Shown: piece after piece, positions 53,260-61,662 of the stretch
Layout of the letters: every line of letters starts with the position of its first letter
Position numbering within the stretch: position 1 is the stretch's first letter
Assembly (NCBI RefSeq): GCF_001426865.1
Contig: NZ_LMFO01000009.1
Span: forward strand, 1 to 64,000
DNA from: Paenibacillus sp. Root52
GTDB lineage: Bacteria > Bacillota > Bacilli > Paenibacillales > Paenibacillaceae
Reading direction: 5' to 3'
Length of the DNA: 64,000 nt
The notes under the pieces: generated by a model
Database searches by the model: none
What the model saw: the letters and a program-made list of their open reading frames with translations, nothing else
What the model was told of the DNA's origin: nothing
Translations under genes and position numbers: made by a program

Positions 53260-53526
53260 ATGTGGATTGATCCCTTTTTCAGTAAGTATAGAAGAATTAA
53301 TTCTAACTTGAAATGATCCGTAGTTACGTTTGAAAGCGTGCTTATGCTTAAGCAATCCTGCGTCTGTGGTTTTTTTGTTAGGGACGGATGTGCTGGATTG
53401 AATTCGTGTATACTAGGGTATGAGATAGTAAGGTATGCATTACATTGCATGAAATTGGTAAGGATTCCGATACATAAAGAGATGAGACCAGATCATACTT
53501 TTATGTTTCCCGAGGTGAATATATTA

Positions 53527-56307
53527 ATGATAACAGAACAACAATTGCTCGACTTTATGCGGGAGACCGCTTATAAACCAATGACTTATCAAGAGCTGGA
53601 ACAGCACTTCGAGATTGAAGATGCGGCTGATTTCAAATCTTTTTTGATTATGCTCAATACGCTGGAGGAATCCGGCAAGATTTTGCTTACCCGTAACAAC
53701 CGTTACGGTATGCCTGAACGTATGGACTTGGTTCGTGGACGTTTGCAGGCACACGCCAAAGGGTTTGCTTTTCTAATCCCAGAAGATCGAGAGCACCCAG
53801 ATGTGTACATTCACGCGAATGATATGAAAAGTGCGATGAATGGAGACATCGTGTTTGTGAAGGTCACTTCTAAAGGGCCATCAGGTGGACGTTTGGAGGG
53901 CGAGATTGTTCGCATTGTTACACGTGCGGTGACACAAGTCGTCGGTGTATTCCAAAGCCATGAAGTATACGGATTCGTCATTCCGGATGATAAACGCATT
54001 AACCGGGATATCTTCATTCCGCGCACCAATTTTGCTGGAGCTGTCGATGGACAAAAGGTTGTAGCGAAGATCGTTAGTTACCCAGAAGGCCGTGCAGCGG
54101 CTGAGGGTGAAATTATTGAGATTCTTGGGCATAAGGATGAGCCGGGGATTGATATTTTGTCTGTTATTCGCAAACACCAATTGCCAGAAGCTTTCCCGGA
54201 TGAAGTCGTTGGTGAAGCAGAACAGGCTCCAGACTCCATTACAGATGAGGAGATCGTGCAACAGGGTCGTCGTGATCTGCGTGGACTGAATATTGTTACG
54301 ATTGATGGCGAAGATGCCAAAGATCTGGATGATGCGGTAAACGTGGAGAAGCTACCTAATGGTAATTACCGTCTGGGTGTTCATATTGCTGACGTTGGTT
54401 ACTATGTGCGTGAGAATTCTAAGTTGGATCAAGAAGCTTATAACCGTGGATGTAGCGTGTATTTGGTGGATCGGGTTATTCCGATGTTGCCACAGCGTCT
54501 ATCTAACGGCATATGCAGCTTGAATCCGCAAGTGGATCGTCTGACATTGTCCTGTGAGATGGAGTTTAACGACCAGATGAAGGTTGTGAAGCATGATATT
54601 TTCACAAGTGTCATTAAGACCAAAGAGCGGATGACGTATAGCAACGTTCGTAAAATCCTTGGAGGCGAAGAGCCCGAATTGCTCGAACGATATAAAGATC
54701 TAGTGGATGACTTCCATCTGATGAAGGAGATTGCCTTGAAGCTGCGTGCGATGCGTATGCGCCGGGGGGCTGTTGACTTTGATTTTGAAGAGTCCAAGAT
54801 CATTGTAGATAAAGAATGCAAACCGATCGATATTGTGAAACGGGAGCGTTCGATTGCGGAGCAAATTATTGAAGAATTCATGTTAGCGGCTAATGAAACA
54901 GTAGCAGAGCATTTCCACTGGCTTAAAGTACCGTTCATCTATCGTGTCCATGAAGACCCGGATCAAGAAAAACTGCAAAATTTCCTCGCCTTTGCGGCGA
55001 ATTTTGGACACCACGTTAAAGGTCGCGGCAACGCCATCCATCCACGTGCACTCCAATCGTTGCTTGAGGACATCAACGGAACAAAAGAGCAGACGGTTAT
55101 TAGTACAATGATGCTACGTTCCATGAAACAGGCGAAGTATGATTCCGAAATGTCGGGTCACTTCGGTCTGGCGGCAGAATTCTATAGTCACTTCACGTCT
55201 CCAATTCGTCGTTATCCTGACCTTGTTATTCACCGTGTGATTCGTGAGGTTATTGAGAACAACGGAGCTCTGCCGGAAAACCGTCAGGAGTACTTGGCTG
55301 GACGTATGGCGGACATTGCACAGCAATCATCCGAACGTGAACGTGTTGCGGTGGAAGCAGAACGTGATACGGAGAAAATGAAAAAAGCTGAGTATATGCT
55401 GGATAAAGTGGGCGAAGAGTTCGAGGGTATGATCAGCAGCGTAACGAGCTTCGGTATGTTTATTGAGCTGGAGAATACAGTAGAGGGTCTTATTCGCCTG
55501 AGTGCGCTCACGGACGACTACTACCATTTTGACGATCAACATATGGCTCTTATTGGAGAGCGTACTTCCAAAGTGTTCCGTATCGGTGATGAAGTGAAGA
55601 TCCGCGTGGCACGTGTGAGCATGGAAGAGTATACGATTGACTTTGAAATGGTGGATATGAAGCCTCGCGGTGAACGTCCTGGTGGATTCGGTGGTGGTCG
55701 CGGTGGTAAAGGCGGTCGCCCTGCTGGTAGCGGTGGACGTGGTGCAGCGAAAGGTGGATTCAGTGGTTCACGTGGTGGCAAAGGTGGCTCTGGCTCTACA
55801 GGTGGTGCTGGAAGAGGTCGTGGCGGCAGATCACCGGAAGAGAGCAGCAAGGGTGGACACAGCGGACGCAGTGGCGCACCGAGTGCCGGAGCAGGCTCAA
55901 CTGGCGGCTTTGCTGGTAAAGGTAGTGGCAAACCGAAGGGTGAGCGCCGGAGTGGAGAAGCTGGTGGATCGACTAATCGTGGCAAAGGAGCAGTAAGCTT
56001 CGGCTTCGGTTCAGGCAAAGGTGGTTACAGCTCTGCACCAAATGGTAGTCAGGAGAGTGGTGCTGGCGGAGGCCATGGAAGTGGTTCTAGTGGCCGCAGC
56101 GATCGCGGTGAGGGCAGCTTCAAATCCGGTAAAGGTGGCAAAGGCGGCAGTGGCCGCAAAAAAACATCACCTAGTGGTATCTTTATTGGCGATGCAGCAA
56201 CACCTGGAGGCACTCAGGAAGGTGGAGCACCTCGTCGTAAGCGGAAGAAGAACAAAGGCGGAGCGGGTAATGGTACGGCTGCTTTTGTACGGAAGAAGAA
56301 AAAGTAA
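53527..56307 (+). CDS. rnr: Ribonuclease R with a long Gly-rich tail
   Basis: This 926-residue 3'-5' exoribonuclease has an N-terminal helix-turn-helix, cold-shock domains (about 70-220), and an RNB catalytic domain (about 250-580) with Asp cluster [15 protein letters not shown]. An S1 domain (about 630-705) follows, containing [11 protein letters not shown]. From about 716 on, a tail of 210 residues consists mainly of Gly, Ser, Lys and Arg (repeated GGKGG, RGG-like) and ends in KRKKNKGG and FVRKKKK. Typical RNase R is near 750-820 residues. It degrades structured RNA and faulty mRNA in trans-translation. The start is ATG 53527 behind GAGGTGAA. Confidence 0.95.
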
Positions 56308-56598: not shown

Positions 56599-57081
56599 AT
56601 GGGCAAGAATGATGGACAGAGTAAAGTGCTCGCACAGAACAAAAAGGCTTCCCATGACTACTTCATTGAAGATACGTATGAAGCGGGCATGGTGCTTACC
56701 GGAACGGAGATTAAGTCTATTCGTAACGGACGTGCGAATATTGGAGATGCGTTTGCCACAATTCGGAACGGTGAGATTCATATTCACAATATGCATATTA
56801 GTCCTTTTGAATAAGGGAACCGACATAATCCGATTGATCCAACACGTACGCGCAAGTTACTGATGCACAAGGCACAGATTCACAAGCTGCTTGGGCTGTC
56901 GAAACAGGATGGTTACAGCATTGTGCCGTTGAAAATTTATGTGCGTAATGGCTATGCCAAGCTGCTGCTTGGACTGGGTAAAGGTAAGAAACAATATGAT
57001 AAACGTGAGACTGCTGCCAAACGGGATGCACAACGTGATATTCAAAGAGCAATGCGCGAGAAGCAGAAGATTGCTCGTTAA
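56599..57081 (+). pseudogene. smpB: SsrA-binding protein gene with an in-frame stop
   Basis: The frame encodes Smp[43 protein letters not shown], then TAA at 56812-56814. The same frame then continues with [36 protein letters not shown] and REKQKIAR to 57081. Related proteins have Gln at the stop position (HISPYEQGNR), so one C-to-T change of CAA to TAA explains it. No frameshift is present. The 71-residue product would lack part of the OB fold and the tail needed in the ribosome. ATG 56863 downstream has no ribosome site. It could be a real null allele, a recoded site or a base-call error. Confidence 0.85.
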
Positions 57082-57602: not shown

Positions 57603-57964
57603 GGGGGCGTTTATGGATTCGACGGGGATAGTTCGAGCATGGGTAGCGGGTAGTGGGGACGCGTCCGCTTCATCAACGCTAAAGCCTATTAAACGGCAAA
57701 CAACAAACAAACTACGCTTTCGCAGCCTAAGAAACTGTGTGCGTGCTTCTAACCTGCATCGCCCATGTGACAGGATTAGGGGCTAACAAGTAGTGGGATA
57801 CGCTGTCACATCTCCGCCTGGGGTGTGCTGAAGAAGACAATCAGGCTGACCCAACGTATAGCCGGTTACAGGGCGATACTCGGGTGACATCAAAACTGTG
57901 ACTACACCCGTAGAAGCTTATGTGTCGTTATCTTCGGACAGGGGTTCGACTCCCCTCGCCTCCA
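57603..57964 (+). ncRNA. ssrA: Transfer-messenger RNA (tmRNA)
   Basis: The 5' end GGGGGCG pairs with the 3' end CGCCTCC (one G-T pair), followed by discriminator A; CCA is not encoded. The conserved GGATTCGACGGGGATAG start and the T-arm GGGGTTCGACTCCCC are present. The tag frame at 57695-57730 reads GKQQTNYAFAA and then TAA, a normal Firmicute tag ending in Ala-Ala. It frees stalled ribosomes together with SmpB, whose gene here has an internal stop. The last 90 bases are repeated at 58820-58913. Confidence 0.96.
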
Positions 57965-57968
57965 TTAG
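57875..57968 (+). repeat. 94-bp direct repeat, copy 1 (3' end of ssrA)
   Basis: This copy runs from GATACTCGGGTGACAT to CCTCCATTAG and covers the last pseudoknot, T-arm and acceptor of tmRNA plus 4 bases beyond. Copy 2 lies exactly 945 bases downstream and differs at 4 of 94 positions. It is probably one half of an attachment-site pair formed when a DNA segment entered the ssrA 3' end. Confidence 0.93.
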
Positions 57969-57974
57969 AGTCAA

Positions 57975-58013
57975 GTCAAAAGCCATCAACCAGTGTTCTG
58001 GTTGGTGGCTTTT
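57975..58013 (+). terminator. Terminator after ssrA
   Basis: AAAAGCCATCAACCAG pairs with CTGGTTGGTGGCTTTT around TGTT and runs into TCTGTTT. It lies between repeat copy 1 and the antitoxin gene. Confidence 0.9.
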
Positions 58014-58058
58014 CTGTTTATGATATAATAAGAATAAATTTAGATTGGGGGACTCCAG

Positions 58059-58256
58059 ATGTTTGAAACTCGAGAACAGCTCCAAGAAATCTTAAAAAAA
58101 GCCAATCAACATGCACGGAAACAAGCTAAAGAATCAGGTGCCTCAATTTATTATATAAAAAACAACAAACGCGTTCGTGAGGATGCTGCGGGTAATAAAT
58201 TCGAAATTATATTTGATGCTACTGGGAAACGCCAGGAGTTTGAATATCATGAGTGA
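58059..58256 (+). CDS. Small putative antitoxin
   Basis: The 65-residue hydrophilic, charged protein has a helical N-terminal half rich in Lys, Glu and Gln (ETREQLQEILKKANQHARKQ) and a beta-like C-terminal half (GNKFEIIFDATGKRQEF). I do not know the family. Its place directly before a zeta-toxin-like kinase gene, with an 8-base overlap, is that of an antitoxin, but it is not like classical epsilon or PezA. GGGGGAC precedes the ATG. Confidence 0.7.
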   Translation: MFETREQLQEILKKANQHARKQAKESGASIYYIKNNKRVREDAAGNKFEIIFDATGKRQEFEYHE

Positions 58257-58821
58257 AATCAGACCAGTCATGACTGTGTTTGCGGGTACCAACGGAGCAG
58301 GGAAAAGTACACTTAGCATGCAAATGAGAGAGTGGCTTGGTGAACTGGTTGATCCAGATCAAATTGCAAGAGAGTTGAAGCCAGAGAATCCGCGTAGTGC
58401 TGATCTGTCTGCTGGCAGGGAAGCTGTAAAAAGAATCCGATCTCTCATTAAAAGTGGTAAAAACTTCGCTATTGAAACGACATTGTCTGGATCGTTTGTT
58501 TTGAAACACATGCAAATTGCAAAAGAAAACAATTATGAAATTGTTGTTTACTATATCGGCCTCGAGGACGTTCAAATGCATATAGATCGTGTTGCCTCTC
58601 GCGTTGAACAAGGTGGACATTGGATTGCAGAAGAAGATATCCGTTATCGATATGGTCAATCATTAAAGAACCTTAAACCGGCTCTAGCCATCGCAGATCA
58701 GGCTATCATCATTGATAATACATACGAGCCTTTAATTGTTGCAGAAATCATACAGAGTAATTTGATCTATTGTGTTGAGTCCATACCTGCTTGGGCTAAT
58801 CCTGTTCTTATTGGTTACTGA
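58249..58821 (+). CDS. Zeta-toxin-like kinase
   Basis: The 190-residue protein has Walker A GTNGAGKS (13-20), acidic DPDQIA (35-40), KNFAIETTLSG (71-81) and Arg-rich segments (HIDRVASR, IRYRYGQSL). It fits the short zeta/PezT-like AAA_33 kinases. Zeta toxins phosphorylate UDP-N-acetylglucosamine and block wall synthesis; whether this one does is inferred. It is shorter than epsilon-zeta toxins (about 280). The start ATG 58249 overlaps the antitoxin gene. The TGA stop at 58819-58821 uses the first two bases of repeat copy 2. Confidence 0.82.
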   Translation: MSEIRPVMTVFAGTNGAGKSTLSMQMREWLGELVDPDQIARELKPENPRSADLSAGREAVKRIRSLIKSGKNFAIETTLSGSFVLKHMQIAKENNYEIVVYYIGLEDVQMHIDRVASRVEQGGHWIAEEDIRYRYGQSLKNLKPALAIADQAIIIDNTYEPLIVAEIIQSNLIYCVESIPAWANPVLIGY

Positions 58822-58913
58822 TACTCGGGTGACATTAAAACTGTGACTACACCCGTAGAAACTTATGTGTCGTTATCTTAGGACAGGGGTTCGACTCCCC
58901 TCTCCTCCATTAG
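58820..58913 (+). repeat. 94-bp direct repeat, copy 2 (displaced ssrA 3' end)
   Basis: It matches copy 1 at 90 of 94 positions. The changes are C to T after GACAT, G to A in TAGAAGCTT, C to A in CTTCGG and G to T in the acceptor (CTCGCC to CTCTCC). The last change would break one acceptor pair with the tmRNA 5' end, so copy 1 is the functional one. It bounds the toxin-antitoxin cassette. Confidence 0.93.
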
Positions 58914-61310: not shown

Positions 61311-61340
61311 GCACCGCGTGCAATATCCAGCACGCGGTGC
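61311..61340. repeat. Perfect GC-rich hairpin without T-tail
   Basis: GCACCGCGTGC and GCACGCGGTGC are perfect inverted copies around an 8-base loop. No T-run follows. It may stabilise the 3' end of the deacetylase mRNA or be a weak terminator. Confidence 0.6.
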
Positions 61341-61410
61341 CCTGCATCTTACCAATGCTGTTAAACCAGCCATTCTAGAGACATTAAGAATGGAACATAA
61401 TTTTAACAAG

Positions 61411-61592
61411 AACTACAAGAACTACAAGAACTACAAGAACTACAAGAACTACAAGAACTACAAGAACTACAAGAACTACAAGAACTACAAGAACTACAAG
61501 AGAACTACAAGAACTACAAGAACTACAAGAACTACAAGAACTACAAGAACTACAAGAACTACAAGAACTACAAGAACTACAAGAACTACAAG
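61411..61592. repeat. Minisatellite: 20 copies of a 9-bp unit split 10 + 10 by two bases
   Basis: The unit AACTACAAG repeats ten times without change (61411-61500), then AG (61501-61502), then ten more exact copies (61503-61592). It lies between the converging deacetylase and beta-propeller genes. Read as protein it would give Asn-Tyr-Lys repeats that switch to Arg-Thr-Thr at the 2-base step, but no start site supports a gene. Confidence 0.95.
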
Positions 61593-61662
61593 TCCAGCTG
61601 CCCAGTTACATAGATCATATTCATATCAAACGAAAATTTCCGCATTCTAGCAATCACCAAAC

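Follow-up and report, generated by a model that had tools for sequence, protein, structure and literature searches.

An in-frame stop codon splits smpB

The window analyzed here, a 64-kb stretch of the Paenibacillus sp. Root52 draft genome, carries smpB on the forward strand (56599-57081), with a TAA at codon 72 and the remaining 159 codons open in translation. The 5' part of the gene (56599..56811, +) consists of 71 sense codons, which translation and profile match assign to SmpB residues 1-71. It is followed by the in-frame TAA (56812..56814, +) at a position where the relatives that were read encode glutamine with CAA or CAG. The 3' part (56815..57081, +) stays in frame for 88 conserved codons and terminates at a normal TAA. 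Read through the internal stop, the translation matches the family profile PF01668 from position 2 to 142 of 143 with 201.2 bits and one TAA inside. The gene thus belongs to the SmpB family over its whole length when read through, and the TAA at codon 72 keeps the complete protein from being encoded in one open frame. Taken separately, both pieces score under the curated cut-off of NCBIfam NF003843 (130 bits): the 5' piece matches with residues 3-70 (97.1 bits) and the piece beginning at ATG 56863 covers profile positions 90-155 (78.1 bits). The intact SmpB of the same-species genome G034 passes this cut-off with 209 bits. The internal ATG opens a listed 72-codon ORF (56863..57081, +); a re-start there is possible, with poor support. 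The first-pass annotation, which had reported the TAA in place of glutamine and the 88 conserved in-frame codons behind it, is confirmed on both points by the translation and the alignment of relatives, including CAA or CAG in 80 relative loci. The search for another smpB that it had proposed was run with PF01668 on the 6.63-Mb, 34-contig draft genome and returned a single match and no second copy.

The ORF upstream of smpB (53338..56307, +), which we take to be rnr encoding RNase R, is full length and stop-free against G034. RNase R is described as a frequent neighbor of smpB (PMC4131195).

ssrA is intact and followed by a cargo insert

Downstream of smpB lies ssrA, the gene for tmRNA (57603..57967, +). 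It is intact and encodes the tag GKQQTNYAFAA; ARAGORN places it at 57603-57964, and RF00023 matches over model positions 1-374 with 176.4 bits. At 57870 its base differs from that of all seven relatives aligned there. We considered whether ssrA is decaying, which would point to lost function, and rejected this, as 57870 is not among the bases rarer than 15% across 103 ssrA-region loci, some genomes being included twice in this set.

An 851-bp insert (57969..58819, +) follows ssrA and is missing at this place in G034. It holds a 65-codon ORF, for which no Pfam match was found, and an AAA-type ATPase that matches Zeta_toxin (E 7.2e-8, 32.5 bits, cut-off 22.3). The right end of the insert is formed by a second copy (96%) of 57875-57968 at 58820..58913 (+), so that a 94-bp direct repeat of the ssrA 3' end closes it. 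An earlier description of ssrA as intact apart from this insertion holds for the gene, which matches RF00023 in full, and needs correction for the insertion, which starts after the intact 3' end. A similar cassette follows ssrA in five other loci (L105, L120, L143, L151 and L157). Together with the window this gives six loci in which about 850 bp are flanked by direct repeats, full or partial, of the ssrA 3' end, and no integrase was seen in the cassette at any of the six. L143 and L157 carry a further unit behind the first, with different cargo and a third repeat at its end, which gives the impression that ssrA gathers cargo cassettes in tandem. The post-ssrA region of L137 is cut by a contig end. 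The idea that the insert caused the smpB stop was rejected: the five other cassette-bearing loci keep Gln at codon 72, and the insert is therefore not tied to the stop. Further downstream, an ORF of tandem KNY and RTT repeats (61318-61650) has no match in the G034 stretch and is probably a simple DNA repeat.

A stop seen in one genome and probably recent

Within the genus, smpB was found in 75 of 75 genomes, the window's own included, and an internal stop only in the latter. Across the family, 388 of 394 genomes have an smpB match, with no internal stop in any row among the matches listed; the six genomes lacking a match are 63-97% complete. Glutamine or a stop at codon 72 was permitted in a pattern scan of genome contigs, which may omit records of the window's own genome. 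It matched 99 loci, and the 80 of these that were read carry CAG (49) or CAA (31) and no stop. Compared with 20 close loci, which stand for at most 17 genomes with at least three pairs being one genome fetched twice, the stop base is the sole smpB base of the window without a counterpart in any locus. Among the loci read, the nearest named relative by smpB is P. tundrae DS1314 (L141), with 95.3% identity to the window over 4977 aligned columns around the gene. An inactivating change private to one lineage, with the gene intact in near relatives, is the pattern of a recent pseudogene.

Recurrent loss of smpB across the family was rejected after inspection of the outlier genomes. The apparent break of G184 coincides with an N run, and that of G120 lies at a repeat just downstream of an N run, which makes an assembly artefact probable in both. 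In G217 a single smpB frameshift occurs, in an assembly with 10% contamination. Three genomes, G254, G081 and G113 (L097, L098 and L099), contain an intact smpB plus a fragmentary second copy, which in G113 is separated from the intact gene by about 5 kb and lies between that gene and ssrA. We counted none of these genomes in favor of the loss. In two family genomes, G393 and G177, neither SmpB nor tmRNA was found over cut-off and RqcH is present; with assemblies this fragmented (190 and 900 contigs), a single gap may have taken both smpB and ssrA.

Relative to G034, 19 of the 483 bases of smpB differ, namely the stop and 18 synonymous changes, of which 5 lie before the stop and 13 after it. 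Since every difference besides the stop is synonymous, selection held until recently. Polarization with eight relatives assigns two synonymous changes and the stop to the private branch of the window's smpB, compared with 15 synonymous and 2 non-synonymous private changes in rnr. Under no constraint along the entire private branch, smpB should have accumulated about 8 non-synonymous changes (375 sites x 17/773), against 0 observed besides the stop. The rate is that of the synonymous changes, 17 of which are private to the branch across 773 synonymous sites; this rough arithmetic assumes that both site classes mutate equally. By the same rough arithmetic the loss, if real, would fall within about the last third of the private branch (95% bound 0.36). 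That the change is recent, as first annotated, is thus well supported by the otherwise synonymous-only divergence from G034 and by a stop private in what was searched.

Other conserved reading frames show no clear mid-gene stop

To the quality of the consensus, reading frames elsewhere in the assembly offer a guide. In the 64-kb window, 57 non-overlapping G034 ORFs of at least 80 codons were compared: 55 were matched and three flagged, and smpB is the sole real break. The other two flagged are an 83-codon ORF that may well not be real and an ORF running off the window. On contig C12, 400 kb were compared with the G034 counterpart (338 ORFs, a match being at least 90% identity). Here 324 ORFs were matched, 314 of them intact and 10 flagged, 7 with stops and three for coverage alone. 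Five flagged ORFs were opened. In three the stop lies at residue 7, 28 or 49, where start regions are probably over-extended; of the other two, the first stops at residue 434 of 438, and the second is a doubtful 133-codon ORF. Two further ORFs with stops have one at residue 124 of 128 and, in a 130-codon ORF, three. No further clear mid-gene stop in a conserved gene turned up in the window or among the opened flagged ORFs of the 400 kb, an argument against both a noisy assembly and an altered genetic code. Comparisons in the opposite direction bear on breaks in G034: of 58 window ORFs six were flagged and two had no match, and of 341 C12 ORFs 325 were matched and six flagged, one of these being interrupted in G034 at residue 243 of 300 by a stop.

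The genome retains other ribosome-rescue genes

RqcH (PF05833) has one match in the genome, in an intact 599-aa open frame. The MutS2 model gives two matches over cut-off, the better one in an intact 799-aa frame. After a gene that we assume encodes an HU-like protein lies a 92-aa S4 protein with no internal stops, which is presumably RqcP. The RqcH, RqcP-like and MutS2 frames are thus all intact, as in a cell backed by RQC. Only two proteins match PF00472 (353 and 359 aa, no internal stops); both were taken as release factors, RF1 and RF2, and no ArfB-sized protein is among the matches in this genome. The ArfA model has 0 matches in the genome; being silent on the B. subtilis control as well, it is uninformative for BrfA. 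The first-pass annotation had foreseen dependence on another rescue path and suggested looking for RqcH-type genes. That search recovered an intact RqcH, and with MutS2 and the RqcP-like protein also intact and no second smpB, ArfA or ArfB found in the genome, such dependence is plausible, the reliance itself being our reading of the gene content.

In B. subtilis, cells are reported to be viable without trans-translation, with RQC supporting survival when BrfA is lost too (PMC11633108), and one study finds that growth needs either BrfA or trans-translation (PMC6881298). BrfA is reported mainly from Bacillus in the latter and from 10 B. subtilis-group species in the former.

Possible explanations of the stop

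Our preferred explanation, to which we give a probability of roughly 0.6, is a private and recent nonsense mutation that abolishes trans-translation and is tolerated through RQC. A single-base change would have converted the Gln codon 72 of the only smpB to TAA. Ribosomes would terminate normally there and release a 71-residue fragment lacking more than half of SmpB, the C-terminal tail included. With most of SmpB gone, tmRNA would be left with no working partner and trans-translation would be lost. The strain would survive by its remaining rescue, most likely RQC, in which MutS2 would split the ribosome and RqcH with RqcP would tail the chain. From the sequence we infer both the loss of SmpB function and the reliance on RQC. 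Points that weigh against the mutation are the near-universality of smpB (388/394), an ssrA lacking clear decay and the reported need of B. subtilis for BrfA or trans-translation (PMC6881298).

The main rival reading, which we consider rather unlikely though a real concern, is that the TAA is a consensus error of the draft or belongs to a sub-population or a sub-culture of the colony that was sequenced, the strain's smpB being intact. Such an origin would agree with a stop base that alone is not shared with any of the 20 close loci, in a gene whose remainder appears fully constrained, and with a genome that is a draft in 34 contigs. The other apparent breaks in the family point the same way, since those of G120 and G184 looked like artefacts and a larger artefact share is therefore to be expected for the window's smpB. 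A 2014 survey likewise cautions that smpB frameshifts could be sequencing errors (PMC4131195). Against an error stands the nature of the change, a clean substitution with no frameshift, and a consensus that looks good: smpB is the only real ORF break in the window, and none of the five flagged ORFs opened in the 400 kb is a clear mid-gene break in a conserved gene.

Useful amounts of full-length SmpB might also arise if the stop were read through often enough, by a suppressor tRNA, near-cognate decoding or recoding. The fully conserved 3' part would fit this, but its conservation is accounted for by recency, and a stop absent from the other 74 genus genomes is not a conserved device. The two release-factor matches are free of internal stops. 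Moreover, anticodon tta occurs in none of the 83 tRNAs called by ARAGORN (75 in 20 genome stretches plus 8 in the window); one tRNA has no called anticodon, and its loop lacks TTA. Rfam also gave 83 tRNA matches in the genome, with 150 of 327 first-look candidates scored, so that some genes were possibly missed. The gene with no called anticodon (L088, G000:C13:17119-17204) is tRNA-like, with a six-base anticodon loop, and receives no identity from ARAGORN. Neither of the marks of recoding, a TAA-reading tRNA or repeated TAA inside conserved genes, was found among the 83 tRNAs and the ORFs compared, and the suggestion in the first-pass annotation that the codon might be recoded finds no support. 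We regard readthrough as very improbable. Even less credible is a working SmpB made of two assembling pieces, residues 1-71 and the last 72 residues from the internal ATG. ATG 56863 does open a 72-codon ORF that reaches the normal stop. However, no good Shine-Dalgarno is visible before it by eye, the residues between the two pieces would be absent, and a stop-split smpB occurs in 0 of the other 74 genus genomes.

Comparison with known cases and significance

Over 97% of bacterial genomes are reported to have trans-translation (PMC11633108). Apparent breaks in smpB have already been described, and the nonsense mutation favored here fits that kind. Among 2031 complete genomes, the 2014 survey counts 16 strains whose smpB is pseudogenized, frameshifted or truncated. 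Thirteen of them have a single frameshift and two a truncation, and the remaining one is a Hodgkinia whose smpB pseudogene contains two TAA stops (PMC4131195). In the survey's own words most of the 13 frameshifts could be sequencing errors. Like the window's strain, those strains have an smpB that is inactive by sequence and a retained ssrA, with the same caveat of sequencing error, and free-living strains are among the 16. Unlike them, our case involves a single nonsense substitution, in a Paenibacillus whose 6.6-Mb draft is of normal genome size, Hodgkinia being an endosymbiont. Laboratory B. subtilis lacking smpB is a further parallel, as the loss of SmpB is tolerated via other rescue, there BrfA and RQC (PMC6881298, PMC11633108); it differs in that its smpB losses are laboratory-made and that B. 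subtilis has BrfA. In its available part, PMC3598801 reports down-regulation of smpB and not a broken gene. A literature search of titles and abstract openings found no smpB stop in Paenibacillus.

Should the base prove wrong, the case would warn against inferring the loss of a near-universal gene from one draft. More tentatively than the mutation itself, we suggest that this may be a large-genome Gram-positive living with neither trans-translation nor Arf-type factors, on RQC alone, caught before smpB and ssrA decay. If true, a wild strain with intact RQC and recently lost trans-translation would offer a natural test of how well the former replaces the latter.
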